Of a DNA stretch of 35,829 bases, positions 6,477 to 35,642 are shown piece after piece. The translations under genes were made by a program, and so were the position numbers. The notes under the pieces are model-generated. The model saw only the letters and a list, made by a program, of their open reading frames with translations. It ran no database searches and was not told where the DNA came from. Position 1 is the stretch's first letter. The number at the start of each line of letters is the position of its first letter. The stretch spans positions 1 through 35,829 of the forward strand of contig SVRE01000018.1 of the NCBI GenBank assembly GCA_015065005.1. Direction: 5' to 3'. Source of the DNA: Oscillospiraceae bacterium (GTDB lineage Bacteria > Bacillota > Clostridia > Oscillospirales > CAG-272).

Positions 6477-6857
6477 GGGGCGTCGAGGACGTCGCCCCCT
6501 ACGGTGTCAATTCCGCGTTTTGATTTTATCGGCGGCAGCAAGCCACCGCCCTACAATTTTGATTTTGCATTGATTCCGAAGGCGTCGAGGACGTCGCCCC
6601 CTACGGTGTTGATTTGGCGTTTTTGTTTTATCGGCGGCAGCAAGCCACCGCCCTACAATTTTGATTTTGCATTGATTCCGGGGCGTCGAGGACGTCGCCC
6701 CCTACGGTGTCAATTCCGCGTTTTTGTTTTATCGGCGGCAGCAAGCCATCGCCCTACAATTTTGATTTTGCATTGATTCCGGGGTGTCGAGGACGTTGCC
6801 CCTACGGTGTCAATTCCGCGTTTTTGTTTTATCGGCGGCAGCAAGCCACCGCCCTAC
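6477..6857 (-). repeat. REP-like hairpin array 1 (8 units, two alternating stem types)
   Basis: Eight hairpins alternate between two stem types, giving four tandem copies of a unit of roughly 100-120 bp. One type is GGGGCG...CGCCCC and the other GGCGG...CCGCC with a GCAGCAAG-type loop region. Every hairpin has CTAC at its 3' foot on the plus strand, meaning GTAG at the 5' foot on the minus strand. Spacers are nearly constant (GGTGTCAATTCCGCG or AATTTTGATTTTGCATTG). One unit (6740) carries a stem mismatch and the copy at 6780 has paired changes in both arms. The array fills the gap between the regulator unit and rsmE and holds no gene. Confidence 0.9.
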
Positions 6858-6873
6858 AGGGTCGATTTTGTTT

Positions 6874-7614
6874 TTAAAGCTCAAGCTCATAGCATATGCA
6901 GGCAAGGGCAAAGGTTGGGGCGGTTTCGCAACGGAGTATCCTTTTGCCAAGTCCGACACTGATAGCACCGTTTTCCTTTAGAAGCTCTGCTTCTTTTTGA
7001 GAAAATCCGCCTTCACTACCTATAATTATGGACACGTCCCCCGATATTTTTGCATTTTTCAGGGCTTGCTTTATCGTTTGGGTGTCCTCACCCTCGTAGC
7101 AAAACAGCACCGTGCCACAAAGGCTTTTTAAAAGCTCACCAAAGGTAAGCACGCCTTTAACCTGCGGTATAATTCCGCGTCCGCTTTGCTTGGCAGCCCC
7201 CTCGGCAATCTTTTGCCACCTGTCAATCTTCTTGCCCTCGTCCTTTTTATCAATTTTAACAACGCATCTTTCCGAGGAGAAGGGGACAATCTCACAAGCG
7301 CCACATTCAATACTCTTTTGGATTATGGTTTCCATTTTGTCGCCCTTGGCAAGCGCCTGGTATAGCCTTATAAAGCACGGCGGCTCTGTGTCAGCCTGCT
7401 TTTCTTCAAGGACACGTGCCCTGACCTTTCCCTCGGAAAAGTCAAATAATTCACACGTGTAGAGGTTTTTTTGCATATCACAAGCCTCAATCACCTCTTT
7501 TGATGCCATTCTAAGTGAACGTGAAATGTGGTGTGCATCATCTCCTGTGATAGTTACAATTTTTCCGTTTTCCGTTATTTCTATTTGGTTTTGTCTTATA
7601 AAAAATCGTGGCAT
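6874..7614 (-). CDS. rsmE: 16S rRNA m3U1498 methyltransferase RsmE
   Basis: RsmE methylates N3 of U1498 in 16S rRNA using S-adenosylmethionine. The 246-residue protein shows a PUA-like N-terminal domain opening with MPRFFI, and the DDAHHISRSLRM motif. A SPOUT-fold C-terminal domain follows with IIGSEGGFSQKEAELL and LGKRILRCETAP, which forms the trefoil-knot cofactor site. The start chosen is ATG 7614, which has GGAGG 8 nt upstream; an in-frame TTG five codons earlier overlaps that ribosome site and is rejected. In Firmicutes rsmE usually follows dnaJ and prmA, as here. However, a terminator (7806-7830) and a promoter (7769-7797) separate it from prmA, so it is probably independently transcribed. 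Confidence 0.95.
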   Translation of the reverse strand: MPRFFIRQNQIEITENGKIVTITGDDAHHISRSLRMASKEVIEACDMQKNLYTCELFDFSEGKVRARVLEEKQADTEPPCFIRLYQALAKGDKMETIIQKSIECGACEIVPFSSERCVVKIDKKDEGKKIDRWQKIAEGAAKQSGRGIIPQVKGVLTFGELLKSLCGTVLFCYEGEDTQTIKQALKNAKISGDVSIIIGSEGGFSQKEAELLKENGAISVGLGKRILRCETAPTFALACICYELEL

Positions 7615-7654
7615 TCTCAACACCTCCAATTAAATGCAAAATTGACATCAAAGA

Positions 7655-7745
7655 TGTCATCCCGAGCATTGCCGAGGGATCTATGGGCTTATAATTGCCT
7701 TTGACACATAGATTTCTCCACGCACTTCGTTTGGTCGAAATGACA
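7655..7745. repeat. MITE-like imperfect inverted repeat
   Basis: A 91-bp element is bounded by TGTCATCCCGAGC (from 7655) and GGTCGAAATGACA (ending 7745). The inner ends of the arms are ATCTATG and CATAGAT. Single-arm relatives (AGATCCCTCGG, then GCTCGGGATGACA) occur at 25681 and, more diverged, at 12929. It sits in the 5' untranslated region of rsmE, between its promoter and start codon, so it would be folded into that mRNA. Confidence 0.65.
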
Positions 7746-7768
7746 GCTTAAATTCATTTTGTTCTTAT

Positions 7769-7797
7769 ATATTACCATTATATTAAATATTTGTCAA
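7769..7797 (-). promoter_or_regulatory. Sigma-A promoter of rsmE
   Basis: On the minus strand a perfect TTGACA (7792-7797) is separated by 17 bp from TAATAT (7769-7774). It lies directly behind the prmA terminator and 155 nt upstream of the rsmE start. Confidence 0.75.
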
Positions 7798-7805
7798 GAC
7801 ATAAG

Positions 7806-7830
7806 AAAAAGGCGGTTTTTCCGCCTTTTT
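7806..7830 (-). terminator. Intrinsic terminator after prmA
   Basis: The symmetric hairpin AAAAAGGCGG-TTTTT-CCGCCTTTTT begins 2 nt after the prmA stop and ends with a run of Ts on either strand. It closes the hrcA-to-prmA transcript and could act in both directions. Confidence 0.9.
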
Positions 7831-7831
7831 A

Positions 7832-8755
7832 TCATTTAAGCTTTAGTGAAATTGCACACCAGCCGTTTTCGTGAATTTCCTCTGTAATTTGGAAGCTGTT
7901 TTCTTCTATGGATTTATACACATCAGCACAACGCTCATCAATGATACCGCTGATAACCAAGGTTGTGTCCTTGTGCATAAAGCTGCCAATATCGGGCAGG
8001 AGGCGAATAATAATGTCCGCTACAATATTTGCGGTGATAACGTCATACTTGCCTTCCTTTACACCCTTTAAAAGATCGGAAACACCGCACACAATATTTG
8101 TGCAGTCATTGTCCTTTACATTTTCCTGCGCCACCTTTACAGCCACAGGGTCAATGTCATAGGCATAGCATTCATCAGCGCCCAGCTTTGATGCGCAAAT
8201 AGCAAGAATACCGCTGCCACAGCCAACATCAAGCATTTTACTGCTTTCGGTTATGTGCTTTTCCAAAAGGGTTGCGCACAATCTTGTTGTTTCGTGTGTG
8301 CCTGTACCAAACGCCATACCCGGGTCCATCTTAACTATAACCTGCTCGGGCTTGGCATCGTATTTTTCCCACATAGGAACAACAACAAGTCGCTTTCCGA
8401 TTTCAATAGGCTTATAGTATTGCTTCCAGGAGTCTGCCCAATCCTCTTCGCAAAGAGAAATCAATTCTATTTTACCGTTTATTTTTTCCGCCTGCATACG
8501 TTGTTCAATGAACATGGTATAGTCCTGCATTGGCTTGTCATCAGGCACGTAAACGGAAACAGAGGCAATTGTACGGTCAGCCTGCAAAACGCTTTCATCT
8601 ATTAAATCTCCGTACACTCCGTCAAGGATTCTGTCCTCAATGTCGGAATAATCCTCAATTTGGAGCCCGTTTGAAATCATACTCATAATGGCAACTAAGG
8701 AATCAAGCTCTTCTGTCTTAACCGTTACCTTAATTTGTATCCATTTATTGTCCAT
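7832..8755 (-). CDS. prmA: Ribosomal protein L11 methyltransferase PrmA
   Basis: PrmA trimethylates ribosomal protein L11 using S-adenosylmethionine. The 307-residue length fits the family. An N-terminal substrate-recognition domain (about 1-100) is followed by the conserved DPGMAFGTGTHETT stretch (about 144-157). The cofactor motif DVGCGSG lies at about 176-182, and a post-motif TANIVADI is typical of PrmA. The ATG at 8755 begins MDNKWIQI, with GAAAGGAAC upstream. It is downstream of dnaJ, as is usual in Firmicutes, but a hairpin array of nearly 500 bp (8826-9315) lies between them. A strong terminator follows its stop. Confidence 0.95.
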   Translation of the reverse strand: MDNKWIQIKVTVKTEELDSLVAIMSMISNGLQIEDYSDIEDRILDGVYGDLIDESVLQADRTIASVSVYVPDDKPMQDYTMFIEQRMQAEKINGKIELISLCEEDWADSWKQYYKPIEIGKRLVVVPMWEKYDAKPEQVIVKMDPGMAFGTGTHETTRLCATLLEKHITESSKMLDVGCGSGILAICASKLGADECYAYDIDPVAVKVAQENVKDNDCTNIVCGVSDLLKGVKEGKYDVITANIVADIIIRLLPDIGSFMHKDTTLVISGIIDERCADVYKSIEENSFQITEEIHENGWCAISLKLK

Positions 8756-8825
8756 AGTTTTGTTCCTTTCTGGAATGATATGTCACGACACGGCAGTGTC
8801 AATTTTGATTTTGCATTTATTGGTC

Positions 8826-9315
8826 GGACGGTCGGGGACGCCCGTCCCTACGGGGGTTATGCCAATTTTGCATTTTGCGTTTTTGTTCGTTTCGGGAGGG
8901 CAGACCCCTCCCCTACGAGGGTGCATCAATTTTGCATTTTGCGTTTTTGTTCGTTTCGGGAGGGCAAACCCCTCCCCTACGGGGGTGCATCAATTTTGCA
9001 TTTTGCGTTTTCGTTCGTTTTGGGAGGGCAGACCCCTCCCCTGCGAGGGTGCATCAATTTTGCAATTTTGCGTTTTCGTTCGTTTCGGGAGGGCAGACCC
9101 CTCCCCTACGAGGGTGCATCAATTTTGCATTTTGCGTTTTCGTTCGTTTCGGGAGGGCAAACCCATCCCCTACGAGGGTGCATCAATTTTGATTTTGCAT
9201 TTTGCGTTTTGCGTTTGTTTGGGCGGACGGTCGAGGACGCCCGTCCCTACGGGGGTTATGCCAATTTTGCATTTTGCGTTTTCGTTCGTTTCGGGAGGGC
9301 AGACCCCGTCCCTAC
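8826..9315 (-). repeat. REP-like hairpin array 2 (8 units) between dnaJ and prmA
   Basis: Eight hairpins with a period close to 64 bp fill the dnaJ-prmA gap. Five central units share the stem GGGAGGG...CCCTCCC. Units at about 8826 and 9220 use the GGACGG...CCGTCC stem, and the last (about 9290) is a mixture of the two. All end in CTAC on the plus strand. Spacers consist of short AT-rich words (CAATTTTGCATTTTGCG, then TTTTCGTTCGTTTC). All units point the same way, and the array would be transcribed as part of the dnaJ-prmA message. Confidence 0.92.
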
Positions 9316-9353
9316 GGGGGTGCGGCAATTTTGCATTTTGCATTTCTCAAAAT

Positions 9354-10487: not shown

Positions 10488-10513
10488 TTAGTTTACCTCT
10501 TAATTTTGCGTTT

Positions 10514-10954
10514 GCGGCGGCAGAAAGCCACCGCCCTACACCGTAGATTTCGTTTTGTGTTTGTTACGTTTGTTGCGGGAGGGCAGACCCCTCCCCTACG
10601 GGTGGTATTGGTTTTGCATTTTGTGCTTGTTGGGCGGACGGTCGAGGACGCCCGTCCCTACGGGGGTATGTCAATTTTGCATTTTGCATTTTGCGTTTTG
10701 TGTTTGTTATGTTTGTTGCGGGAGGGCAGACCCCTCCCCTACGGGTGGTATTGGTTTTGCGTTTTGCGCTTGTTGGGCGGACGGTCGAGGACGCCCGTCC
10801 ATACGGGGTTATGTCAATTTTGCATTTTGCATTTTGCATTTTGCGTTTTGTGTTTGTTACGTTTGTTGCGGGAGGGCAGACCCCTCCCCTACGGGTGGTA
10901 TTGGTTTTGCGTTTTGTGTTTGTTGGGCGGACGGTCGAGGACGCCCATCCCTAC
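10514..10954 (-). repeat. REP-like hairpin array 3 (7 units) between dnaK and dnaJ
   Basis: One GCGGCGG...CCGCC unit (10514-10539) is followed by three tandem pairs. In each pair the GGGAGGG...CCCTCCC stem comes first and the GGACGG...CCGTCC stem second, giving a compound period of about 145 bp. All end in CTAC on the plus strand. The spacer before each pair contains a different number of TTTTGCA/TTTTGCG words (one to four), so this microrepeat expands and contracts. No gene lies here. Confidence 0.9.
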
Positions 10955-10998
10955 GGGGGTATGTCAATTTTGCGTTTTGCATTTTGCATTTTGCATTT

Positions 10999-11046
10999 AA
11001 AAACCCTTTGGGACTACCCCTTTTGGGGCAGTCCCTACGGGTTTTT
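10999..11046 (-). terminator. REP-type hairpin acting as putative terminator or attenuator after dnaK
   Basis: A GTAG-footed hairpin (GGACTACCCC-TTTT-GGGGCAGTCC, 11011-11034, with CTAC at 11035-11038) is enclosed by an outer AAAAACCC/GGGTTTTT stem (10999-11006 and 11039-11046). On the minus strand it starts at the dnaK stop codon and is followed by TTTTTAAATG. That is an intrinsic-terminator architecture built around a repeat-family hairpin. It would reduce dnaJ expression relative to dnaK. Confidence 0.6.
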
Positions 11047-15318: not shown

Positions 15319-18300
15319 TTATTTCTTATCTACTACAACGTAGATTGGGTTTTCGGACACGTTAACGTAAACGTAACCCTCGCTATCAACTGTAAGTGTT
15401 GACTGCTTACCTGTTTGGCTACTTGTTTCCGCAACTGTGTTGCCTGCTTCATCGTAGCCTACCTGTGTTTCGGTAAGGGTTACGCTGTTGCAATCTGTAC
15501 CAACGTAGAGCTTGTAGCCATCAACCTTTGTCATATTGGAGGTTGGGCACCAGAGTGCATATGCCTCCTTTGCCTCATCCTTTGGTAGCCAGCTTATAGC
15601 ATCATCCTGTCCGTTTGTGAACTTAAATACCGTAACATCTTCTCTGCCTGACTCAACTTCCTTTTCAAAGTAGAATTCATTTAAGGTATTATAAAGGGTT
15701 GATATGTAATAATAGGATGCCTTTGGTGTAAGCTTTATTTCCGCATAGCTGCCGGCAAGCAAATCATTATCAATAAAGTAATATCTGTTATTTCCGTATG
15801 AATCAGGCTCACCCTTATAGCAATCATAGCCCTTTACTGTGTAAATAATCTCCGGGTTGTCACCACCGTAACGGTATGTAAAGCCATAGGCACCGCAGGT
15901 ACCGTACCTGCCGTATGCGCTTCTGTCATTACCCATATCCTCAACCATATACATTGTTGCCTTATCAACTCCGCAGGAGGACAAGAGCAAATATGCACGT
16001 GTTAACCACATAGCCTGAACCTGGCGTGATGTATATTCACCGTAGCGGTGTGCGGATGTGGCGGTTTCATATGATTCGTTTGTGTCCCAGCCGAACTCAG
16101 TGAGCCAAACCTCAACATCAGGATAATACTTGTCTCTGAACTCAACAAGGTCAGACATTGCTTCAACAAGACCGTATTCCTCAGGGCTTACACCAACTAA
16201 AACTCTCTCCCCGTTATACATCTCATACTTGCTGAAATATTTATGTACGTTAAATGCGTCCATAGCGATTGCGTCATTCTTTGTTGTCCACATTCCATAC
16301 TTATCATATCTGTTAGCTCTCATCCAATAGCACATAGCGGCAATATAGTTATAGTTATTGTTATCATTACCTGCAATATTAGCCAAGCCCGCCATAGCAA
16401 CCTTGATATCAGGGTCAGCGTTCTTTGCGCCTAAGAAATATGTATAATCATCCGGGTTATAAACATCAGCCAAAAGCGTTCTCATATGTCCGTCATAAGC
16501 GGCGGATGTAAGGGCGGCAAGCTGGTAAGGTGTTGTACCTCTTTGGTCCTCACCGTTTGGCTCATTACCGAACTCAAGCCACTTAATAAGGTTAAGTCCG
16601 ATTTCAGTGCCGCCGTCAGAGTGAACCCTTACATTTTCGTACAAGTATCCCATTCTGGAGCTACCGTAGCGCGCAGCATACTGATACACAAGGTCAGCAT
16701 ATCCAATGTATGTAGATGGCAAATATTTTTCTGTAAAGGTTGCAACCTCGGAGTTAAGCTTACCTGTGAGCTTGTTATATGTCCTTGCAGGGTTATCACC
16801 ATCACCCCACTGTAAGCAAGGAATAATTAAATTATAGGGTGCGTGCTCCTTATACTTCTTATCAAAGTTACCAACAACAGTCTTGATAAACACAGTTGAC
16901 TTAAGTGGGAACGAGGATGCGTTGTAGGACCAACCAAGGTTGTGGTACTCACGTACAATATTAACGAAGGAAAGTTCCCCAACGGTGCTTCCGGCACCGT
17001 CACCAAGGATGGTGCAAGCGCCCATCATTTCACCGATTGTGGGAAGCTTATGTGTTTTATCACTTAGCTCATCGCCCTCGGTTTCGCCTGTCTGATAACC
17101 GTAAAATACTACCTCAACAGGGGCTTCACCGTCAAGGAACTGAAGCTGAATAAATCTGACCTCTTTACCGATTTCAATCTTGTTCCAGGAGCTTGGCTTG
17201 AAGGAGGTTGCCAAATATGTTTCATTTGTAGCATCCCAAGCGCTTGGAGTTTTGAAGTTTGCAAAGCCCTTTGACGTACGAACGTCAAGGTCATATACAT
17301 CCTGGCTGTAGAAAACCATAATATAATCAATGTAATGGTTGTATTCAAGGTCGATGATAGGAGCAAGGTCGGTACCGTATCTTTCGTCAGTATCGGTATA
17401 GTACTCAAGTCTATCCTCATTCCAGTCACCAGCCTTGTGATAGAATTTCTTTAGCCTGTTTATTGGAAGAGCACCGTTTAAAGCAATATCATATTCATCA
17501 ATCAAAGGAGTTAAATCCTTAATAACCTCGCCACAGTAAATGGAGTTTACCCTGTTCGGGTCAACATAAACAAGGTCAATGCCGCCTGCGCGTATTGCTT
17601 CAACATTGCTCTTTATTCCATTGCTCTTTACACGGACAGCTATATAGTACTTATCTGTTTTTCCTACCGCCAAGTCAAGAACCGCTGTTTTCACAGTTCC
17701 TAAGCCTGTGACGGTTACGCCTTGGGCAAGGGTAGCTTCATTAAAGCTTTCTTCTGTAATTGGAGATGTGCTGTATCTGATTTCGTAGAACGGGTTCTTG
17801 CCTGTTACATTGAATTTGATAGTAACATTTTCGTTGCCTATTTGTGCTATCCTTAAATATTCAACCACAGGCGCCTTTTCACGCAAGTGATAAGGCAACT
17901 CAACCACAAGCTTGCACACATCGCAAATGTATTCCCCATCATCATTTTGTGTGTTGAGGGTACACTCTCCCTGCTCTGTATGGCTGCTATCCCTTAAGCA
18001 AGTTCTTTTATGGGTATAGCCGTTTTCCTTGGTCCACTCACCGTACAAATGTCCAAGCGCCTCCCCAACACCAAAGGTGTTTTCCCCCTTCTTGCCGCAA
18101 ACGCAGGAATAGTAATAATACGCCATTTCCAGACAGGTGGCGGGGGATTTTTCGTACACGTCCTCAGCTATTTTCTTGTCATATACGTGGGCAAGGAGGT
18201 CACCGTAGCCGCTTTTACATTTTTCACAGATTGCCTTTTCAGCACAGGTTGCCTTGCCACCGTTACAGCTATTTGTTTCGGTATGACTTGCATCATTTGC

Positions 18301-19623
18301 ACATATTCTTGTGTGGGTGCCATTACCGTTTGATGCCCAGGCGCCAAAGCTATGTCCAAGGGCTTCACCGTGCTCAAAGGTGTCCTCTCCCTTTGCGCCG
18401 CACACGCAGGAATAGTAATAAAGCGATTTTGTAAGACAAGTTGCGGGGGATTTTTCGTACACGTCCTCAACTATTTTCTTGTCATATGTATGTGGAAGGG
18501 GAGCGCCGTAGCCATCACCGCAATCAGCACAAATGGCAAGGGATGTACAGGTTGCCTTACCGCCGTTACATCTTTCTGTAACGGTTATTTCTGCATTCTC
18601 ATTGCAAACCTTGGTATGTGTACCGTCACCGTTGGATGTCCAGGGGCCGTAGGTAAACAGAAGAAGCTCACCGTATTCGCCGCCGCAAGCCTCACACTTA
18701 GCCTTTTCATCAGCGGTTGGGGTGCCGCCGTAGCATTTTTCACTTTCTATATGAGTAGCGTCATTTGCACAAATTCTTTGGTGATAGCCGTCATTTGTTG
18801 ATTGCCAATCACTGTAGCTATGTCCAAGTGCTTCACCGTAGTTGCTTTTACAATCTGCACAATTTGCTTTTTCGGTACAGGTTGCCTTGCCACCGTTACA
18901 GCTATTTGTTTCGGTATGACTTGCATCATTTGCACATATTCTTGTGTGGGTGCCATTACCGTTTGATACCCAGGCGCTAAAGCTATGTCCAAGGGCTTCA
19001 CCGTGCTCAAAGGTGTCCTCTCCCTTTGCACCGCACACGCAGGAATAGTAATAAAGCGATTTTGTAAGACAGGTTGCGGGGGATTTTTCGTACACGTCCT
19101 CAGCTATTTCCTTGTCATATGTATGGGAAAGGGGGGCGCCGTAGCCATCACCGCAATCAGCACAAATGGCAAGGGATGTACAGGTTGCCTTACCGCCGTT
19201 ACATTTTTCTGTAACGGTTATTTCTGCATTCTCATTGCAAACCCTGGTATGCGTTCCGTCACCGTTGGATGTCCAGGGGCCGTAGGTGTACTCCGGTGCT
19301 TTTTCCAGCACTCCGTTGCAAACACCGCAGATTTTGTCCTGTCCCTCTGCCGCCTCCGCCGCTGTACATTTCTCGGTTTGGCTATGGTCCTTGTCATTGG
19401 CGCATACTCTTGTATGGGTCCCATCACCGTTGAAAGACCATTCACCGTATGCGTGGCCTGTGGGTTCTCCCATTGTTGCGTTACACAATGAGCATTGCCT
19501 TGGCGTTGTACAGGTCGCATTTGCCCAGCTATGCACGCATATTCCGTTCGGATCGCAAGCGGCTAAGCATAGCGCTGCGCCAAGCAAAGCAAGTATTAAT
19601 AATAAATGTAGTGTTTTTTTCAT
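15319..19623 (-). CDS. Secreted lipoprotein: Cys-rich repeats plus putative clan GH-A glycoside hydrolase
   Basis: This 1434-residue protein has a lipoprotein signal (lipobox LAAC, Cys23) and should be tethered outside the cell. Residues about 30-575 hold repeated Cys modules (WTSNGDGTHTRVC, then CNGGKATCTSLAICADCGDG) with paired cysteines that may bind metal. A 211-residue block is duplicated at DNA level with an offset of 633 bp. A fibronectin-III-like stretch (about 590-670) and a jelly-roll, discoidin-like stretch (about 720-830) come next. The final 560 residues look like a TIM barrel with paired acidic residues: Glu1021 in WLEFGNEPNG (acid/base) and Glu1176 in VWLTEFGWDTN (nucleophile). 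That pair is the clan GH-A signature. I cannot place it in a numbered family, so the substrate is unknown. A close paralogue lies at 20631-23351. Confidence 0.72.
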   Translation of the reverse strand: MKKTLHLLLILALLGAALCLAACDPNGICVHSWANATCTTPRQCSLCNATMGEPTGHAYGEWSFNGDGTHTRVCANDKDHSQTEKCTAAEAAEGQDKICGVCNGVLEKAPEYTYGPWTSNGDGTHTRVCNENAEITVTEKCNGGKATCTSLAICADCGDGYGAPLSHTYDKEIAEDVYEKSPATCLTKSLYYYSCVCGAKGEDTFEHGEALGHSFSAWVSNGNGTHTRICANDASHTETNSCNGGKATCTEKANCADCKSNYGEALGHSYSDWQSTNDGYHQRICANDATHIESEKCYGGTPTADEKAKCEACGGEYGELLLFTYGPWTSNGDGTHTKVCNENAEITVTERCNGGKATCTSLAICADCGDGYGAPLPHTYDKKIVEDVYEKSPATCLTKSLYYYSCVCGAKGEDTFEHGEALGHSFGAWASNGNGTHTRICANDASHTETNSCNGGKATCAEKAICEKCKSGYGDLLAHVYDKKIAEDVYEKSPATCLEMAYYYYSCVCGKKGENTFGVGEALGHLYGEWTKENGYTHKRTCLRDSSHTEQGECTLNTQNDDGEYICDVCKLVVELPYHLREKAPVVEYLRIAQIGNENVTIKFNVTGKNPFYEIRYSTSPITEESFNEATLAQGVTVTGLGTVKTAVLDLAVGKTDKYYIAVRVKSNGIKSNVEAIRAGGIDLVYVDPNRVNSIYCGEVIKDLTPLIDEYDIALNGALPINRLKKFYHKAGDWNEDRLEYYTDTDERYGTDLAPIIDLEYNHYIDYIMVFYSQDVYDLDVRTSKGFANFKTPSAWDATNETYLATSFKPSSWNKIEIGKEVRFIQLQFLDGEAPVEVVFYGYQTGETEGDELSDKTHKLPTIGEMMGACTILGDGAGSTVGELSFVNIVREYHNLGWSYNASSFPLKSTVFIKTVVGNFDKKYKEHAPYNLIIPCLQWGDGDNPARTYNKLTGKLNSEVATFTEKYLPSTYIGYADLVYQYAARYGSSRMGYLYENVRVHSDGGTEIGLNLIKWLEFGNEPNGEDQRGTTPYQLAALTSAAYDGHMRTLLADVYNPDDYTYFLGAKNADPDIKVAMAGLANIAGNDNNNYNYIAAMCYWMRANRYDKYGMWTTKNDAIAMDAFNVHKYFSKYEMYNGERVLVGVSPEEYGLVEAMSDLVEFRDKYYPDVEVWLTEFGWDTNESYETATSAHRYGEYTSRQVQAMWLTRAYLLLSSCGVDKATMYMVEDMGNDRSAYGRYGTCGAYGFTYRYGGDNPEIIYTVKGYDCYKGEPDSYGNNRYYFIDNDLLAGSYAEIKLTPKASYYYISTLYNTLNEFYFEKEVESGREDVTVFKFTNGQDDAISWLPKDEAKEAYALWCPTSNMTKVDGYKLYVGTDCNSVTLTETQVGYDEAGNTVAETSSQTGKQSTLTVDSEGYVYVNVSENPIYVVVDKK

Positions 19624-19772: not shown

Positions 19773-20555
19773 GGACGGTCGGGGACGCCCGTCCCTACGA
19801 GGTGCGGCAATTTTGGATTTTGCGTTTTTGTTCGTTTCGGGAGGGCGGACCCCTCCCCTACAGGTGCGGCAATTTTGCGTTTTGCCTTTTTGTTCGTTTC
19901 GGGAGGGCGAACCCCTCCCCTACGGTTGTGGCAATTTTGTGTTTTGCGTTTTTGTTCGTTTCGGGAGGGCGGACCCCTCCCCTACAGGATTTCAATTACG
20001 CATTTTGCGTTTGTTGCAGGAGGGCGAACCCTCCCCTACAGGTTATGCCAATTTTGAATTTTGCGTTTTTGTTCGTTGAGCGGACGGTCGGGGACGCCCG
20101 TCCCTACGAGGTGCGGCAATTTTGGATTTTACATTTTTGTTCGTTTCGGGAGGGCAGACCCCTCCCCTACGGTTGTGGCAATTTTGTGTTTTGCGTTTTT
20201 GTTCGTTTCGGGAGGGCGAACCCCTCCCCTACAGGTGGTGTCGGTTTTGGATTTTGCATTTTGCGTTTTCGTTCGTTTCGGGAGGGCGGACCCCTCCCCT
20301 ACGGGGTTGTGGCAATTTTGGATTTTGCATTTTCGTTTGTTTCGGGAGGGCGGACCCCTCCCCTACGGGTGGTGTCGATTTTGAATTTTGCTTTTTCGTT
20401 CGTTTCGGGAGGGCGGACCCCTCCCCTACGGGGTGTTTCAATTTTGGATTTTGCGTTTTTGTTCGTTTCGGGAGGGCGGACCCCTCCCCTACGAGGTGCG
20501 GCAATTTTGCATTTTGCGTTTTCGTTCGTTTCGGGAGGGCGGACCCCTCCCCTAC
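19773..20555 (-). repeat. REP-like hairpin array 4 (13 units), the longest
   Basis: Thirteen hairpins at about 60-70 bp spacing separate the two large lipoprotein genes. Eleven use the GGGAGGG...CCCTCCC stem. Two (about 19773 and 20080) use the GGACGG...CCGTCC stem. One unit at about 20018 has lost a base pair from each side of its stem (GGAGGG...CCCTCCC). Loops vary between GGAC, GAAC and AGAC, while the stems stay paired. All have CTAC at the plus-strand 3' foot. Spacers are built from TTTTGGATTTTGCG and TTTTCGTTCGTTTC words. Confidence 0.92.
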
Positions 20556-20584
20556 AGGTGGTGTCGATTTTGGATTTTGCATTC

Positions 20585-23534: not shown

Positions 23535-23950
23535 GGGAGGGCGGACCCCTCCCCTACGATGTGTGACAATTTTGCATTTTGCGTTTTCGTTTGTTTTGGG
23601 AGGGCGGGCCCCTCCCCTACAGGTGGTGTCGGTTTTGGATTTTGTGTTTTGCGTTTGTTTGGGCGGACGGTCGGGGACGCCCGTTCCTACGAGGTGCGGC
23701 AATTCTGCATTTTACATTTTCGTTCGTTTCGGGAGGGCGGACCCCTCCCCTACAGATGGTGCCGATTTTGGATTTTGCGTTTTGCGTTTGTTTCGGGAGG
23801 GCGGACCCCTCCCCTACAGGTGGTGTCGGTTTTGAATTTTGCGTTTTGCGTTTGTTCGGGCGGACGGTCGGGGACGCCCGTCCCTACGAGGTGCGGCAAT
23901 TCTGCATTTTACATTTTCGTTCGTTTCGGGAGGGCGGACCCCTCCCCTAC
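23535..23950 (-). repeat. REP-like hairpin array 5 (7 units)
   Basis: Seven hairpins, five of the GGGAGGG...CCCTCCC type and two of the GGACGG...CCGTCC type (about 23666 and 23864), all have CTAC at the plus-strand 3' foot. One unit (about 23600) has GGGC in the loop side. The array occupies the gap between the lipoprotein promoter and the stop codon of the Amidase_6 gene. Confidence 0.9.
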
Positions 23951-23999
23951 AGGTGGTGTCGATTTTGGATTTTGCATTTTGCGTTTCCAACGCCCGTGG

Positions 24000-24757: not shown

Positions 24758-24976
24758 GGTGGGAGCAAGCCCCTCCCCTACGGGCGGTATCGAATTTGCA
24801 TTTTGCGTTTTTGTTCGTTTCGGGAGGGCAGACCCCTCCCCTACAGGTGTGTCGGTTTTGAATTTTGCGTTTTGCGTTTGTTTGGGCGGACGGTCGAGGA
24901 CGCCCGTCCCTACGAGGTGCGGCAATTTTGCATTTTGCTTTTTCGTTCGTTTCGGGAGGGCAGACCCCTCCCCTAC
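24758..24976 (-). repeat. REP-like hairpin array 6 (4 units)
   Basis: Four hairpins occur in this array. A hybrid (GGTGGGAGCAAGCCCCTCCCC) comes first, followed by GGGAGGG-, GGACGG- and GGGAGGG-type units, all with CTAC at the plus-strand 3' foot. The last unit ends 12 nt from the stop codon of the pseudouridine synthase gene. The rest of the gap 24627-24757 is AT-rich with no feature I can support. Confidence 0.88.
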
Positions 24977-24988
24977 GGGACCAATTAT

Positions 24989-25631: not shown

Positions 25632-25654
25632 GGGCGAACAATGTTCGCCCCTAC
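25632..25654 (-). repeat. Single GTAG hairpin, GGGCGAACA stem type
   Basis: GGGCGAACAATGTTCGCCC (25632-25650) is a 9-bp perfect hairpin with CTAC at its plus-strand 3' foot. It is another stem class of the same GTAG family and lies just upstream of the pseudouridine synthase start. Confidence 0.8.
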
Positions 25655-25680
25655 AAAGTTTAAATTTAGATAAAGCCATC

Positions 25681-25727
25681 AGATCCCTCGGCGTTGCTCG
25701 GGATGACACCTGTTTGTGTCAATTTTG
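25681..25727. repeat. Dispersed AGATCCCTCGG/GGGATGACA repeat copy
   Basis: AGATCCCTCGGCGTTGCTCG then GGATGACA, a GACA/TGTC mini-palindrome and AATTTTG. It matches one arm of the element at 7655-7745, in the opposite orientation, and leads directly into array 7. Confidence 0.6.
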
Positions 25728-25744
25728 AATTTTGCATTCGTTTC

Positions 25745-26162
25745 GGGAGGGCGAACCCCTCCCCTACGGAATATCAATTACCCATTTTGCATTTATTTCG
25801 GGAGGGCGAACCCCTCCCCTACGGAATATCAATTACCCATTTTGCATTTGTTTCGGGAGGGCGAACCCCCTCCCCTACGGGATATCAATTACCCATTTTG
25901 CATTTGTTTCGGGAGGGCGGACCCCTCCCCTACACGGGTGTTGATTTTACTTTTGTTGGGCGGACGGTCGAGGACGCCCGTCCCTACGAGGGTATCGAAT
26001 TTGCATTTTGCATTTTGCATTCGTTGCGGGAGGGCGGACCCCTCCCCTACGGAATATCAATTACCCATTTTGCATTCGTTGCGGGAGGAGCAAGCCCCTC
26101 CCCTACGGGATATCAATTACCCATTTTGCATTTGTTTCGGGAGGAGCAAGCCCCTCCCCTAC
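25745..26162 (-). repeat. REP-like hairpin array 7 (8 units)
   Basis: Eight hairpins at about 55-60 bp spacing lie between the pseudouridine synthase and gpmI. Most are GGGAGGG...CCCTCCC and one is GGACGG...CCGTCC (about 25962). The last two are hybrids with GGGAGGAGCAAGCCCCTCCC. The spacer here is a distinct word, ATATCAATTACCCATTTTGC, so each array has its own spacer dialect. All have CTAC at the plus-strand 3' foot. Confidence 0.9.
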
Positions 26163-30261: not shown

Positions 30262-30373
30262 AAATTAAGCAGATAACAATATTATTGAGGTTACTATACA
30301 GCATTATGGAAAAGAATAAAATGTATGACGTCTTATTTTCAATTTTTTCATAACAAATCTCCTAAAATAAAGT

Positions 30374-30411
30374 AGACACATCATCAAGGATTTCTCCAAA
30401 ATGATGTGTCT
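30374..30411 (+). terminator. Intrinsic terminator of the LRR lipoprotein gene
   Basis: AGACACATCAT (30374-30384) pairs perfectly with ATGATGTGTCT (30401-30411) and is followed by CATTTCTTTATTT. It is the first part of the 223-bp duplicated block. Confidence 0.75.
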
Positions 30412-30431
30412 CATTTCTTTATTTAATTTTC

Positions 30432-30480
30432 GTAGGGGCAATTTTGAATTGCCCGCGGGTCATTCGTGAATGACCCCTAC
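30432..30480. repeat. Inverted pair of GTAG hairpins (BIME-like)
   Basis: GTAG (30432) then GGGCAATTTTGAATTGCCC, followed by GGGTCATTCGTGAATGACCC and CTAC (30477-30480). The two hairpins differ in stem sequence and face outward. This is the inverted arrangement of REP pairs called BIMEs in enterobacteria. An identical copy is at 32408-32456. Confidence 0.85.
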
Positions 30481-30501
30481 AAAAGCCTTATAAATCAAGG
30501 A

Positions 30502-30596
30502 TTATTTGCTTGCCTCTTCAACTGCAACTGCAACTGCAACAGTCATACCAACCATTGGGTTGTTACCAGCGCCGATAAGACCCATCATTTCTACGT
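30502..30596 (-). pseudogene. 3'-terminal fragment of the GGGtGRT gene
   Basis: The last 31 codons and stop of the GGGtGRT gene recur here, offset 1976 bp from the intact gene's end at 32478. The reading frame breaks off at 30596, where homology stops. It has no start codon or ribosome site and is a remnant of the duplication. Confidence 0.92.
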
Positions 30597-30847
30597 AAAA
30601 TCAGATTTTCGCCGAGAAATGCGTTGTAAATAAAGACGTGCGACACATCATCGTGTCTTATTTGTACCCACATTATTATGTGCATAACAAGGTTCTACGC
30701 AGTAGGTTCTTATAACATATTTGCAAATACTTTTCAACATCTTTCTTAAAAGTTATAATCAAATATGTATCATCTTTTTAATACTGTTCATTGCCATATT
30801 ATTACCCTTAACTTTTTCGACTCATAATTCTTTTTTAATTAAAAGTG
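30597..30847. other. AT-rich intergenic stretch with no gene
   Basis: I see no coding region here. The only structure is a weak hairpin (GACAC-ATCATC-GTGTC then TTATTT, near 30650). It is the left part of the segment bracketed by the 223-bp direct repeats. Confidence 0.5.
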
Positions 30848-30876: not shown

Positions 30877-30882
30877 TCAAAG

Positions 30883-31100: not shown

Positions 31101-31140
31101 ATTTACCGAAAAAAATTTATTTTAAGGAGAAAAACAAAAA

Positions 31141-32331
31141 ATGACAAAAAGACTTTTATGTATTATCGTCATTGTTCTTGCAGTTGCTTGCGTTTTGGTT
31201 TCTTGTGGTGATAATTCCAAAAGCAACGACAACAATAACACTACAAGCATTAGCACCGACAACACTACAAATGACACGGAAAACAGTGGCTCTGGCTCTC
31301 ACACTCATGATTATGAAGAATGGGAAACGGTTAAGGCAGCTACTTGCACAGCCGAGGGTACAAAAGAAAGATATTGCTCCTGCGGCGAAAAGCAGACTGC
31401 TACTATTATGGCAACAGGTCATAGCTTTGGTGAGTGGAAAACAGTTAAAGAGTCAACCACAACAGAAAAGGGATTGCAAGAAAGAGCTTGTGCATGTGGA
31501 GAAAAGGAAACAAGGGATTTAGATAAGCTTTCTGTTGTTACTACCATAACTAAACAACAGTGGAAGAGCTTTCTTGATTTTTCAAAATTGTCAAGTTTTA
31601 CAATCACTGCCAATGAGACTGGTTTCTATGACGAAAATTTATCAGCGATATTCAATCTTGTGGCAAAAAGCTATAACGGTCTTACTTATGTTAAGATAAT
31701 AGGTACAGATAGTTTAAGTGGTGAGGTTTTATTTGAGGAAGAATCCTATGAAACAAATGCAACAAACCCTATTTACTATATCGGTGGAATGGGTTTTGAT
31801 CACCTTCACACGCTGGTTAACGAATTTTGGAGATACGACGATTATTATTTTTCCAACTTAGTTTATTCAAACGAAGATAAATCATATTCTTTCAAAGACA
31901 CACCCGAGTTCAAATTTTGGTTTGAAAACGGCATTTTGACTAAGTACACTTATACCGATGATGAATTAACCTCAGAATACATAATATCAGACATAAATAC
32001 TACTGATATGGTGGATGTTCCAATTAACAAAGCTCGTAATACATTACAGGAAGCACTAAGTACTCTTTCCGAAGCATCGGTTTTTGATTATTGGTTCAAC
32101 AATAAACTTGAATACGATACAAATGTAATTTTAAATCAGTTGAGTTGCTTTATTGTAACAGGGGTTGAACGTTATCACCTTTTTCAAGAAGGAGAACATA
32201 TATCAATAATGATGGATTTAACCTCCGATATTTCTTTAATTTCTTCTGTTGATTGTAATGTTACCGATGGAAAAATCACATATCTTTATATAGAATTTGG
32301 AAATGGTGACACCGCTCAATTGGTATTCTAA
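31141..32331 (+). CDS. Lipoprotein with two Cys-rich modules and unknown C-terminal domain
   Basis: This 396-residue protein has a lipoprotein signal (lipobox LVSC, Cys22) and a Ser/Asn/Thr linker. Two modules follow (about 55-135) of the same kind as in the LRR lipoprotein: HDYEEWETVKAATCTAEGTK then ERYCSCGEKQTA, and HSFGEWKTVKESTTTEKGLQ then ERACACGEKETR. In the second module the first cysteine position is Thr. The C-terminal 260 residues (from KQQWKSFLDFSKLSSFTITA) match no family I recognise. The pattern of aromatic and acidic strands suggests a substrate- or ligand-binding beta domain. ATG 31141 has AAGGAG 11 nt upstream. Expression probably depends on read-through of the leader terminator at 31070-31100. 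The gene lies inside the segment bracketed by direct repeats. Confidence 0.8.
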   Translation: MTKRLLCIIVIVLAVACVLVSCGDNSKSNDNNNTTSISTDNTTNDTENSGSGSHTHDYEEWETVKAATCTAEGTKERYCSCGEKQTATIMATGHSFGEWKTVKESTTTEKGLQERACACGEKETRDLDKLSVVTTITKQQWKSFLDFSKLSSFTITANETGFYDENLSAIFNLVAKSYNGLTYVKIIGTDSLSGEVLFEEESYETNATNPIYYIGGMGFDHLHTLVNEFWRYDDYYFSNLVYSNEDKSYSFKDTPEFKFWFENGILTKYTYTDDELTSEYIISDINTTDMVDVPINKARNTLQEALSTLSEASVFDYWFNNKLEYDTNVILNQLSCFIVTGVERYHLFQEGEHISIMMDLTSDISLISSVDCNVTDGKITYLYIEFGNGDTAQLVF

Positions 32332-32349
32332 TTAAACAAAATGCAAAAA

Positions 32350-32387
32350 AGACACATCATCATGGGTTTACCCAAAATGATGTGTCT
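32350..32387. terminator. Bidirectional intrinsic terminator between convergent genes
   Basis: AGACACATCAT and ATGATGTGTCT form the stem. On the plus strand CATTTCTTTATTT follows, ending the lipoprotein transcript. On the minus strand TTTTTTGC follows, ending the GGGtGRT transcript. Confidence 0.85.
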
Positions 32388-32407
32388 CATTTCTTTATTT
32401 AATTTTC

Positions 32408-32456
32408 GTAGGGGCAATTTTGAATTGCCCGCGGGTCATTCGTGAATGACCCCTAC
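32408..32456. repeat. Inverted pair of GTAG hairpins, second copy
   Basis: This is identical to 30432-30480 and was carried along in the 223-bp duplication. It lies directly after the GGGtGRT stop codon. Confidence 0.85.
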
Positions 32457-32477
32457 AAAAGCCTTATAAATCAAGGA

Positions 32478-33476
32478 TTATTTGCTTGCCTCTTCAACAG
32501 CAACTGCAACTGCAACAGTCATACCAACCATTGGGTTGTTGCCTGCGCCGATAAGACCCATCATTTCTACGTGAGCAGGAACGGATGAGGAGCCGGCGAA
32601 CTGAGCGTCACCGTGCATTCTACCCATTGTGTCTGTCATACCGTAGGAAGCAGGACCTGCTGCCATATTATCTGGGTGAAGGGTACGACCTGTACCGCCA
32701 CCTGATGCAACTGAGAAGTAGTTCTTGCCGTTTTCCCAGCACCACTTCTTATATGTGCCTGCAACGGGGTGCTGGAATCTTGTTGGGTTGGTGGAGTTAC
32801 CTGTGATAGATACACCAACATTTTCAAGTCTCATAATAGCAACGCCTTCAGGAACACTGTCAGAGCCGTAGCACTTAACGTCAGCTCTTGGGCCCTTGGA
32901 GTATGGTGTTTCAGAAATCACCTTAACATCCTCTGTTGCAGGGTCAAATTCTGTTTCAACAAATGTAAAGCCGTTGATTCTTGAAATAATCATAGCGGCA
33001 TCCTTGCCAAGACCGTTCAAAATAACGCGAAGTGGCTTTACTCTTACCTTATTTGCGTTGAGAGCAATCTTAATAGCGCCCTCAGCAGCAGCGAAGGACT
33101 CGTGTCCTGCCAAGAAGCAGAAGCACTCTGTTTCCTCGGAAAGAAGCATCTTACCAAGGTTACCGTGGCCAAGGCCAACCTTTCTGTTTTCAGCAACAGA
33201 GCCGGGGATACAGAAAGCCTGAAGACCGATACCGATAGCGGCAGCAGCGTCAGCAGCCTTTGTGCAGCCCTTCTTAATTGCGATAGCAGCACCAACTGTG
33301 TATGCCCAAACAGCGTTTTCAAAGCAGATTGGCTGTGTTTCTCTTACAATCTTATCACAGTCAATACCCTTAGCAAGTGTAATTCCCTTACACTCCTCAA
33401 TGGAGTTAATACCATATTCCTTAAGAGCAGCCAAGATTTTAGCTTCTCTTCTCTCATATCCTTCAAATAATGCCAT
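32478..33476 (-). CDS. GGGtGRT family protein
   Basis: This 332-residue protein belongs to the GGGtGRT family (PF14057), named for the motif seen here in SVASGGGTGRTLHPDNM at about residues 255-270. Function is not established. It has several conserved cysteines (CDKIV, CFENAV, CFCFLAGHE), a nucleotide-binding-like ILNGLGKDAAMIISRI stretch and an Ala/Val-rich C-terminus encoded by a GCAGTT triplet-pair repeat. No signal peptide is present. It lies 14 nt downstream of an iron-sulfur scaffold-like gene, an association conserved in anaerobes. A role in Fe-S or selenium/sulfur-dependent enzyme maturation is inference. Its 3' end is partly duplicated at 30502-30596. Confidence 0.92.
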   Translation of the reverse strand: MALFEGYERREAKILAALKEYGINSIEECKGITLAKGIDCDKIVRETQPICFENAVWAYTVGAAIAIKKGCTKAADAAAAIGIGLQAFCIPGSVAENRKVGLGHGNLGKMLLSEETECFCFLAGHESFAAAEGAIKIALNANKVRVKPLRVILNGLGKDAAMIISRINGFTFVETEFDPATEDVKVISETPYSKGPRADVKCYGSDSVPEGVAIMRLENVGVSITGNSTNPTRFQHPVAGTYKKWCWENGKNYFSVASGGGTGRTLHPDNMAAGPASYGMTDTMGRMHGDAQFAGSSSVPAHVEMMGLIGAGNNPMVGMTVAVAVAVEEASK

Positions 33477-33490
33477 TATCCGTTACCTCC

Positions 33491-34183
33491 TTATTGCTTT
33501 CTTGGGTCGATATACTTTGCAGCCTCTGCAAATCTACCGTATGTACCCTTAGACTTTTCGTAAGCCTCGTTTGGCTCCATACCCTTCTTAATGAAGTCAG
33601 TCATCTTGCCAAGAGAAACGAATTCATAACCGATAACCTGGTCGTTTTCATCAAGAGCCATTCTTGTGCAGTAGCCCTCTGTCATTTCAAGGTAACGAAC
33701 ACCCTTTGCCTTAGTACCGTACATAGTACCAACCATTGAACGAGCACCCTTACCAAGGTCCTCCATACCGGCGCCGATAACAAGACCGCCCTCAGAGAAA
33801 GCAGACTGTGTTCTACCGTAAACAATCTGTAAGAAAAGCTCACGCATAGCTGTGTTAATAGCGTCACAAACAAGGTCTGTATTAAGAGCCTCTAAAAGAG
33901 TCTTACCGGGCAAGATTTCTGCTGCCATAGCTGCAGAGTGTGTCATACCTGAGCAACCGATGGTTTCAACAAGAGCCTCTTCAATAATACCGTCCTTAAC
34001 ATTCAAGGAAAGCTTGCAAGCGCCCTGCTGTGGTGCACACCAACCAATACCGTGTGTGTAACCGGAAATGTCTGTGATTTGCTTAGCCTGTACCCACTTA
34101 CCTTCTTCAGGAATTGGAGCCGGACCGTGCTTTGGTCCCTTAGCTACGGAGCACATGCTTTCAACTTCGTGTGAATAAATCAT
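33491..34183 (-). CDS. NifU/IscU-like iron-sulfur cluster scaffold family protein
   Basis: This 230-residue protein resembles the NifU_N/IscU scaffold fold in its central part. LSLNVKDGIIEEALVETIGC then SGMTHSAAMAAEIL carries Cys77 at the position of a scaffold cysteine. Cys49, Cys56 and Cys106 (DLVCDAIN) are other possible ligands. It is much longer than IscU, with an extra N-terminal segment and a C-terminal half (GARSMVGTMYGTKAKGVRYL) not found in classical scaffolds, so it is a specialised relative. It is co-transcribed with the GGGtGRT gene downstream. A consensus promoter lies at 34217-34245 and the SD AAGGAG precedes ATG 34183. Holding or delivering a cluster to its partner is the inferred role. 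Confidence 0.85.
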   Translation of the reverse strand: MIYSHEVESMCSVAKGPKHGPAPIPEEGKWVQAKQITDISGYTHGIGWCAPQQGACKLSLNVKDGIIEEALVETIGCSGMTHSAAMAAEILPGKTLLEALNTDLVCDAINTAMRELFLQIVYGRTQSAFSEGGLVIGAGMEDLGKGARSMVGTMYGTKAKGVRYLEMTEGYCTRMALDENDQVIGYEFVSLGKMTDFIKKGMEPNEAYEKSKGTYGRFAEAAKYIDPRKQ

Positions 34184-34216
34184 ATGATTATCTCCTTATA
34201 TAAATTTTTCCCTTAT

Positions 34217-34245
34217 ATTATACAATATCTTGACTGTAAAATCAA
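34217..34245 (-). promoter_or_regulatory. Sigma-A promoter of the scaffold-GGGtGRT operon
   Basis: On the minus strand TTGATT (34240-34245), 17 bp, then a perfect TATAAT (34217-34222), 34 nt upstream of the start codon. Confidence 0.8.
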
Positions 34246-34313
34246 CATTTTTATTAAATTTTTTATTTTTTGCGACAATGCATATTTTTTAACCCCAAAA
34301 TCGCAAAATATTG

Positions 34314-34342
34314 TTTACTTTTTATATATTATATGATATAAT
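34314..34342 (+). promoter_or_regulatory. Candidate promoter of the rsuA-type gene
   Basis: TTTACT (34314-34319), 17 bp, then a perfect TATAAT (34337-34342). It is divergent from the scaffold promoter. Confidence 0.5.
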
Positions 34343-34363
34343 ATTACGTGAATTTTTATGTTC

Positions 34364-34387
34364 GGTGGGAGCAAGCCCCCACCCTAC
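34364..34387 (-). repeat. Single GTAG hairpin, GGTGGG stem type, in the rsuA leader
   Basis: GGTGGG (34364-34369) pairs with CCCACC (34378-34383), with CTAC at 34384-34387. It lies in the 5' leader of the rsuA-type gene, 10 nt ahead of its ribosome site region. Confidence 0.75.
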
Positions 34388-34410
34388 AACGAGGTAAGGT
34401 GAGCATTTTT

Positions 34411-35115
34411 ATGCGGCTTGACAAATTTCTTTCCAATATGGGTAAGGCAACCAGGAGCGAAGGTGGCAAGCTGGTGCGTGCGGGCAAGGTTTTGGTAAAC
34501 GGCGTCCCTGCCAAGAAAAGTGATATGCAAATCAACCCCGACAAGGATGAGGTTTTGTTAAACGGTGTACCCGTTACATACAAGAAATTCACCTACATTA
34601 TGTTAAATAAGCCCGAGGGGTATGTAAGCGCAACTGATGACCCAAATGAAAAAACCGTGCTTGACTTAGTTGACCCTGAGGACAGGCGCCGTGGGCTTTT
34701 CCCCTGTGGACGCCTTGACAAGAATACCTTAGGTCTTGTTATTCTGACAAATGACGGTGAGGGGGCGCACAGGCTCTTATCCCCAAAGCACCACGTATCT
34801 AAGGTTTATAAATTTGAAGCCCTCTCCCCTATTTCACAAAAGGACGTGGAAATGCTTGAAGGGGGTGTTGACATTGGCGGTTACGTTACCAAGCCATGCA
34901 AGGTTACCCTTACAGGAGATACGCAAGGGGAAATCACCTTGACCGAGGGTAAATACCACCAGATTAAGCGTATGCTTGAGGCGGTGGACAACAAGATAAC
35001 GTATCTTGAGCGAATTTCCTTTGGCACAATTGAGCTTGACCCACAGCTTAAGCGTGGGGAGTGGAGATATTTGACCCAGAAAGAGGAAGAGCTGTTTATA
35101 AAGCAAAATGGATAA
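34411..35115 (+). CDS. rsuA: RsuA-family rRNA pseudouridine synthase
   Basis: This 234-residue enzyme converts a uridine of ribosomal RNA to pseudouridine. An N-terminal S4 RNA-binding domain (MRLDKFLSNMGKATRSEGGK, then LVRAGKVLVNG) precedes the catalytic domain. The catalytic Asp103 is in CGRLDKNTLGLVILTNDGE. The LNKPEGYVSA and EGKYHQIKRMLEAV motifs are those of the RsuA/RluB/E/F group. The start chosen is ATG 34411 with AGGTGAG about 8 nt upstream; an in-frame GTG at 34348 would read through the GTAG hairpin and is rejected. The transposase gene overlaps its 3' end by 8 nt. RsuA versus RluB/E/F cannot be decided from sequence alone. Confidence 0.93.
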   Translation: MRLDKFLSNMGKATRSEGGKLVRAGKVLVNGVPAKKSDMQINPDKDEVLLNGVPVTYKKFTYIMLNKPEGYVSATDDPNEKTVLDLVDPEDRRRGLFPCGRLDKNTLGLVILTNDGEGAHRLLSPKHHVSKVYKFEALSPISQKDVEMLEGGVDIGGYVTKPCKVTLTGDTQGEITLTEGKYHQIKRMLEAVDNKITYLERISFGTIELDPQLKRGEWRYLTQKEEELFIKQNG

Positions 35116-35254
35116 AGAAAATTTGCCTGTTAGGAAGAAAAACCGCCTTATCAATTTTGATTACAGCCGAGGCGGCGCATATTTTGTAACCATTTGTACA
35201 CAGGATAGGAAAAGAATATTGTCAAGCATCGTACATACAAACGGACCTGATTAT

Positions 35255-35277
35255 GTAGGGGAGGGGTTTGCCCTCCC
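35255..35277 (+). repeat. GTAG hairpin embedded in the transposase gene, first
   Basis: GTAG (35255-35258), GGGAGGG (35259-35265), a 5-nt loop GTTTG, then CCCTCCC (35271-35277). It has the same stem as the major class in the arrays and is translated in frame as VGEGFALP. Confidence 0.9.
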
Positions 35278-35413
35278 GCAATTAACCAATATTGGACAAA
35301 TAGCAGAATATTGGATGAAAAACATTTGTGTGCGTTTTTCCAATGCAGAATTAGACAAGTATGTAATAATGCCGAACCATATTCATATGGTTTTGATATT
35401 AAGGGAGTCTGAC

Positions 35414-35436
35414 GGGAGGGCAAACCCCTCCCCTAC
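35414..35436 (-). repeat. GTAG hairpin embedded in the transposase gene, second
   Basis: GGGAGGG (35414-35420), loop CAAAC, CCCTCCC (35426-35432), CTAC (35433-35436). It is inverted relative to the first copy, so the two GTAG feet face outward around the HUH-coding core. It is translated in frame as GRANPSPT. Confidence 0.9.
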
Positions 35437-35642
35437 AGTGTCCTCTATCATAGGGTGGCTGAAATATAACATAACAAGGGCTGCTGATTTAAAAAGCGGT
35501 CAAAGGCTGTTCCAGCGTTCATTTTATGACCGTATTATACGGAACAGGGATGAATACATGGAGATATGCAATTATATTTATTTTAACCCATTGAATTGGG
35601 AAAATGATGAATTATACTCTTTATGAAAGGAAAACTATACAT

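Follow-up and report, generated by a model that had tools for sequence, protein, structure and literature searches.

The window analysed here is a whole contig of 35,829 bp (SVRE01000018.1, contig C83 of genome G000) from an Oscillospiraceae bacterium, a gut member of the Clostridia, whose assembly of 2.06 Mb in 103 contigs is 83% complete. It carries seven arrays of repetitive extragenic palindromic (REP) hairpins with the tetranucleotide GTAG at one foot of the stem and, close to its 3′ end, a gene for a REP-associated tyrosine transposase (RAYT, or TnpAREP). A preliminary description of this DNA had counted the hairpins without noting that two of them lie inside the RAYT reading frame itself, where they form an inverted pair with a common stem on either side of the HUH motif.

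The RAYT gene and its inner REP pair

The RAYT gene (35108–35626, + strand) encodes 172 amino acids with the HUH motif NHIH and a catalytic tyrosine in YIYFNP, and its ATG lies in an 8-base overlap with the 3′ end of the pseudouridine synthase gene upstream. The product matches NF047646 (E 9.8e-18, 64.4 bits, curated cut-off 80), Pfam Y1_Tnp (20.3 bits, cut-off 23) and the E. coli TnpAREP chain 4er8_A (E 1.2e-5). Although the family scores fall under the curated cut-offs, calling the gene a RAYT, as in the preliminary description, appears right. For comparison 102 RAYT-related genes were assembled, 22 from genome G000, its genus, family and order (fragments excluded) and 80 loci from named genomes, one of the latter being identical to one genus locus. 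The 80 named loci nearest the window RAYT are mostly from metagenome-assembled genomes of Clostridia or Oscillospiraceae, many of them from the ruminant gut according to their titles. HUH was recognised in 101 of the 102 genes (NH[IFV]H in 83, DHxH in 10, NHLH in six and NHMH in two) and YxxxNP in 91, while a rough pattern for the WQ position found WQ in 64, FQ in 30 and FK in five of 99 genes. Set against the subclass 2.4 signatures NH[IFV]H, WQ and YIxNNP, the window protein has NHIH, FQ and YIYFNP, such that the system appears to fit subclass 2.4, or RAYT group 4, as the nearest of the listed subclasses by its motifs.

Internal REP 1 (35255–35277, + strand) precedes the HUH motif and is read in frame as GTA-GGN (Val-Gly), while internal REP 2 (35414–35436, – strand), the same 23 bases inverted, follows directly after the motif and is read in frame as CCT-ACN (Pro-Thr). 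Both are translated through, as VGEGFALP and GRANPSPT, with REP 2 overlapping a 6-residue gap of chain 4er8_A in the alignment. Genome G000 has four full RAYT genes with four different stems, the other three having the same inner layout. The window gene is not bordered by inverted REPs as in the REPtron layout; on the upstream side the closest REP lies at a distance of 720 bp and belongs to a different kind, and the 203 bp downstream to the contig end are free of REPs. In 74 of the 102 genes the 200 bp on the outside hold no REP, as far as flanking sequence reached.

Both inner sites are present in 89 of the 102 genes (21 of the 22 from G000 to order level and 68 of the 80 named loci), with site 2 only in four, site 1 only in three and neither in six. 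Site 1 lies mostly 40–49 codons before HUH and site 2 mostly 9–18 codons after it. At each site one codon phase of the GTAG prevails, with 92 of 95 hairpins at site 1 and 81 of 95 at site 2. A search of the 102 frames that was blind to GTAG returned 229 hairpins: GTAG opens 83 of the 95 in the site-1 zone and CTAC closes 67 of the 87 in the site-2 zone, compared with a GTAG or CTAC foot on six of 47 elsewhere in the frames. In 23,700 draws of synonymous codons a hairpin arose 105 times at site 1 and 66 times at site 2, less than 0.5% each, and the hairpins are therefore not forced by the protein sequence.

The two stems of a gene match each other. Among 79 non-redundant genes (<80% identity, drawn from 86 with both sites and no stop) stem similarity was 0.945 between a gene's own partners, 37 of which are identical, as against 0.600 between genes, with 0.662 the highest value in 5000 permutations. 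There are 55 distinct site-1 stems among these 79 genes. The two inner sites change together across genes: with a tree built after masking the hairpin residues, stem distances at sites 1 and 2 correlate at 0.86 over all gene pairs, at 0.82–0.90 in four bins of tree distance from 0.5 to 3 and at 0.42 in the last bin (25 pairs). In 41 of the 79 genes the stem at site 1 resembled the gene's own site 2 more than that of the nearest neighbour, with the reverse in 10 and a tie in 28. Exchange of the HUH-coding segment as a cassette was considered and rejected, as 3655 pairs among 86 genes included no near-identical inside with a distant outside; the most extreme row involved a truncated gene (L250).

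REP arrays in the window and REP kinds across the genus

A strict scan of the window for GTAG plus a hairpin (score ≥18) gave 57 hits. Those at 3239, 14594 and 24004 look like chance and were dropped, and the hairpin at 11010–11038 after dnaK, which has a similar counterpart at the corresponding position in genome G016, is probably the dnaK terminator. This leaves 53 REPs belonging to seven or more stem kinds, with the GGGAGGG kind accounting for 32. With decayed copies added by eye the total is about 60, so that the seven arrays and some 60 hairpins given in the preliminary description stand. At a single fixed cut-off there were 54 GTAG hairpins in the window and none in each of five dinucleotide shuffles. 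A GTAG-blind search of the window found 75 hairpins with 150 feet, among which GTAG was the commonest (44, compared with 0, 0, 0, 0 and 1 in the five shuffles) and TTTC, the opposite foot of the same arrays, the second (23), although copies within one array are not independent in these counts; GTAG also formed seven feet among the 34 hairpins outside arrays. The earlier claim that every hairpin carries GTAG was too strong, one unit at about 9021–9044 reading GCAG, while the enrichment of GTAG at the stem foot over shuffled sequence is borne out. In sum, the elements have a GTAG foot common to several unrelated stems, short hairpins, many copies and a mostly intergenic location. The window is unusually rich in them, with only seven GTAGGG hairpins in 20 other stretches of genome G000 (289 kb). 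No Rfam match was found in the window.

The arrays located by the hairpin scan all have their units on the – strand, the counts at score ≥17 being, in order, 6, 5, 6, 13, 6, 3 and 9; the claim of up to 13 same-strand units is therefore accurate. The first array (6477–6857) alternates two kinds in a double unit of about 101 bp, the second (8826–9346) lies between dnaJ and prmA, and the third (10514–10998), between dnaK and dnaJ, has a 143–150-bp double unit of two kinds. The longest, with 13 units at a period of about 63 bp, spans 19773–20580 and is followed by arrays at 23535–23986 and 24758–24979, the latter short and with a first unit too decayed to be counted. The nine units of the seventh (25632–26162) comprise the array proper at 25745–26162 plus one REP of a different kind, which stands alone at 25632–25654. 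Further REPs include a single copy at 34364–34387 (– strand), identical to one of the two internal REPs of the RAYT gene on contig C76 of G000, and an inverted dimer with GTAG feet at both outer ends, present with the same sequence at 30432–30480 and 32408–32456. These dimers fall within a repeat of at least 200 bp (30370–30600 and 32346–32575, bounds set by eye) that also includes the 3′ end of a GGGtGRT gene; the insert of about 1.75 kb between the two copies holds a lipoprotein-like open reading frame without a Pfam match (31141–32331) and the whole looks like a duplication-linked insertion. Two large open reading frames, at 15319–19623 (1434 aa) and 20631–23351 (906 aa), have no Pfam match at 0.001.

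The arrays are local and recent. A T-rich 15-mer of the window has 12 copies there and one elsewhere in genome G000, and the spacers differ among contig C14, contig C102 and the window, as expected from local copying of a REP together with its flanks. In the C14 locus (5600–8800), for example, the two REP kinds of the array are separated by a different spacer, composed of short A-rich repeats. The distinct amplification mode proposed in the preliminary description is accordingly unneeded and not evidently new, tandem REP blocks with flanking DNA being described in the parts of PMC3733652 consulted.

Across 29 congeneric genomes the stem of the window RAYT (loop TYYG) has 57 copies in G000, two of them inside the gene, six in G003 and one each in G013 and G004, with no copy in the 25 other congeners. 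The second RAYT stem has 14 copies in G019, whose RAYT contains two of them and has a third next to it, six each in G024 and G012 and one each in G000, G006 and G002. Nine copies of the third stem occur in G000 and nine in G014, each genome having a RAYT of that stem with two of the copies in the gene; elsewhere it is found in G012 (three), G004 (two, both inside its RAYT), G008 and G016 (one each) and G028 (seven). At least one of the three stems was present in 12 of 16 genomes with a RAYT match, a class that includes fragments and two weak matches, and in one of 13 without (Fisher 0.00036), while reversed versions of the three patterns gave no match. As the three stems derive from RAYT genes, a fairer test is a sample of about 24–290 kb per genome picked regardless of stems, in which GTAGGG hairpins were found in five of 10 genomes with a full RAYT and none of 11 without (Mann-Whitney 0.0055). 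Hairpins are thus not equally dense in RAYT-lacking relatives. The window contig, 1.7% of the genome, holds 28 of the 57 copies of its RAYT stem (26 of 55 excluding the two in the gene), which is suggestive of a cis-preference of the RAYT, with other clusters existing and this being one case only. Blast comparison of REP loci in G014 and G028 (eight and seven, respectively) for filled and empty sites gave, among the matches listed, none spanning a locus; those listed were REP-sized, a few being REP plus flank up to 150 bp.

Probable sites of insertion

The places occupied in G000 are empty in most of the other genomes compared. The dnaJ-prmA gap is 598 bp full of REPs in G000, as against 50 bp or less in 22 of 25 other genomes (25 bp or less in 21), and gaps of 662, 227 and 205 bp in G024, G006 and G002 hold no REPs. 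G024 (L263) is the relative with the closest DnaJ, its 662-bp gap being REP-free. The dnaK-dnaJ gap is 557 bp in G000 and 57–308 bp in 24 others, two of these having a terminator-like GTAG hairpin there. As far as gap sequence reached, no array was found at dnaK-dnaJ-prmA in 26 other genomes.

At rsuA, the following gene scores 23.6 bits for a PHP domain (cut-off 26.4) from 62 visible residues. The two genes adjoin in 22 of 24 genomes, with –3 to +36 bases from the rsuA stop to the next start, while in the other two, G000 and G012, a bare RAYT frame lies between them, its start at –7 and +5, respectively, relative to the rsuA stop and its end some 20–30 bases before the next gene. These two RAYTs are 47% identical and have different stems, possibly representing independent insertions or an old shared insertion with losses. 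The PHP-like gene after rsuA often occurs twice in tandem, about 1.05 kb apart, at genus loci (e.g., L319–L325).

Interpretation and relation to known systems

We consider the window to hold, with a probability of about 0.8, a REP/RAYT system of subclass-2.4 type in which each RAYT gene carries its own inverted REP pair in frame and the RAYT likely spreads REPs of its kind. The REP/RAYT reading of the preliminary description is supported, a RAYT-borne stem recurring 57 times in the genome and REPs tracking RAYT presence in the genus, and the REPs of this genome have probably been spread by its own RAYT proteins. Most likely the RAYT would recognise folded single-stranded REPs of its own kind by the GTAG foot and spread copies, with single copies then multiplying locally together with flanking DNA to give same-strand arrays. 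The REPs that border other RAYT genes would here have been absorbed into the coding sequence, making the reading frame the whole element and the inner pair the element's own ends, built into two protein loops, as suggested for site 2 by the alignment with 4er8_A and presumed for site 1. With the target pair inside the coding sequence, enzyme and target are inherited together; such placement would keep the two linked and let the frame sit in an operon. The hairpins and their frame, the matched and co-changing stems, the link to genomic copies and the empty sites are seen directly in the sequences; we infer binding, cutting and movement by the RAYT and retention of the inner pair for its function as DNA. 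For the broader proposal, that the group-4-like RAYTs of Clostridia have no outer ends, the pair having moved in frame, where it is selected as both DNA and protein and changes in step, and that the bare reading frame inserts into operons, the odds seem about even.

The inner REPs might instead be ordinary insertions that recur in two loops tolerant of extra residues and have no role of their own, a view close to the statement, in the available text of PMC6006769, that the variable region perhaps matters little for activity. Site 2 does fall in a gap of the E. coli protein, an extra inner copy occurs in a few genes (L033, L232 and L239) and REPs in other genes are reported in the available text of PMC3733652, but random landing predicts mixed orientations, frames and stems, whereas 89 of the 102 genes share both places with opposite orientations and mostly one phase, their stems matched within the gene and differing between genes, which makes this explanation unlikely. 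A role of the hairpins in terminating transcription or stabilising mRNA, with multiplication through replication slippage and no relation to the RAYT, would account for the position of all seven arrays between – strand open reading frames with GTAG on the same strand, and for tandem periods of about 50–70 bp; it is highly improbable given stems identical to the RAYT-borne pair, the distribution in the genus and the lack of a T-run after the GTAG hairpins in the stretches inspected.

A role of the inner pair as a switch, in which the protein, or a fold on mRNA or single-stranded DNA, limits RAYT expression, is compatible with a RAYT-borne target pair and is somewhat more credible than either, if still doubtful. 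As single-stranded DNA, the inner copies of the window gene pair into one long stem round the HUH-coding part (z –9.3, none of 200 shuffles as good); such a fold is expected from any inverted pair, however, and a switch alone leaves unexplained why the stems follow the genomic REP kind.

Several observations weigh against the reading of the inner pair as the RAYT's own target and of the RAYT as the source of the REPs. The 80 named loci were those closest to the query, so that the frequency of the pair was measured essentially within Clostridia. Of the 102 genes, 13 lack one or both inner REPs, some having matching REPs just outside, and the inner place is therefore not required. L215 has no inner REP and an identical inverted pair at –93 and +6, while in L213 and L224 site 2 is accompanied by a REP of the same or almost the same sequence immediately upstream. 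Plasmid and phage collections gave three and one records with relatives, respectively. Of three records inspected, a Chloroflexota plasmid relative has flanking REPs only and a Bacteroidota plasmid relative has no inner REP and is followed immediately by a palindrome whose two feet are both GTAG, while a phage-labelled human faecal contig (L317, MT839559.1), which may be host DNA rather than phage, carries a RAYT with the full inner pair, sharing one stem. These arrangements suggest that an outer pair may have moved inward in the Clostridia branch. In the genus comparison the three stem patterns came from RAYT genes, favouring RAYT-bearing genomes, and the compared genomes share ancestry; the samples of five of the 10 RAYT genomes held no REP, and all three stems are lacking from RAYT-positive G010, G025, G022 and G001. 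Kinds of REP and kinds of RAYT do not correspond one to one. Among the four RAYTs of the 83% complete assembly none matches the array kind GTAGGGACGGGCG, G003, G024 and G012 each have six copies of a stem with no full cognate gene seen there, and G028 has seven REPs of the third stem with no RAYT found; the G028 contig matching the flank of the G014 RAYT locus ends before the RAYT place, so that one may lie beyond the contig end.

The present data document REP/RAYT systems in many gut Clostridia and touch on how the match between RAYTs and REPs is maintained and on whether REPs are moved by RAYTs in the first place. If a gene bears its own target, specificity would become readable from sequence alone, as in the 55 distinct site-1 stems among 79 genes. 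Such genes would also offer ready enzyme/target pairs for binding and cutting tests, and the empty sites a means of tracking movement. If the proposal is true, each gene would hold both key and lock of its own specificity and changes in the inner pair would set the REP kind spreading in the genome.

The REPtrons and GTAG REPs of Proteobacteria resemble this system, as far as the main texts of PMC2817692 and PMC3733652 describe them, in the GTAG foot, two inverted REPs per RAYT gene, kind-specific genomic REPs and the occurrence of intragenic REPs, the difference being that their pair borders the gene while here it lies inside; the words Clostridi- and Firmicutes are absent from both main texts. 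Tandem reiteration of REPs with flanking DNA, one species with large blocks and intragenic REPs are all described in the available text of PMC3733652. In Proteobacteria, TnpAREP processes cognate single-stranded REPs in vitro, dependence on the GTAG motif differing among enzymes and enzyme and REP co-evolving (PMC8266576; Corneloup et al., 2021), and by homology such processing is likely here too. That work covers three pairs, from E. coli, S. maltophilia and Marinomonas, and a word search of the accessible text for inner or flanking REPs found nothing on inner placement. The palindromic elements of Rickettsia, as outlined in PMC3733652, likewise lie in frame within proteins, in various genes, while here the repeat belongs to the gene whose product presumably acts on it.

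The nearest known system is subclass 2.4, in which in-frame REPs, variable and generally between HUH and Y, were described within the genes (PMC6006769; Quentin et al., 2018), Clostridia being mentioned in the available text only for the IS200 subclass. That text makes no statement of a fixed, matched and inverted inner pair, though the supplementary figures may show more, and a literature search, mostly at the level of listings, gave no paper on one. The HUH and tyrosine signatures, in-frame REPs and variable HUH-Y region are common to both. As far as its text goes, subclass 2.4 has variable insertions generally between HUH and Y together with further REPs flanking the gene, unlike the present genes, which have two fixed sites, before and after HUH, inverted, stem-matched within each gene and changing together. 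In-frame REPs in subclass 2.4, long arrays and intragenic REPs were thus already known from these sources and, set against them, the new part is the location of the target in a matched inner pair.

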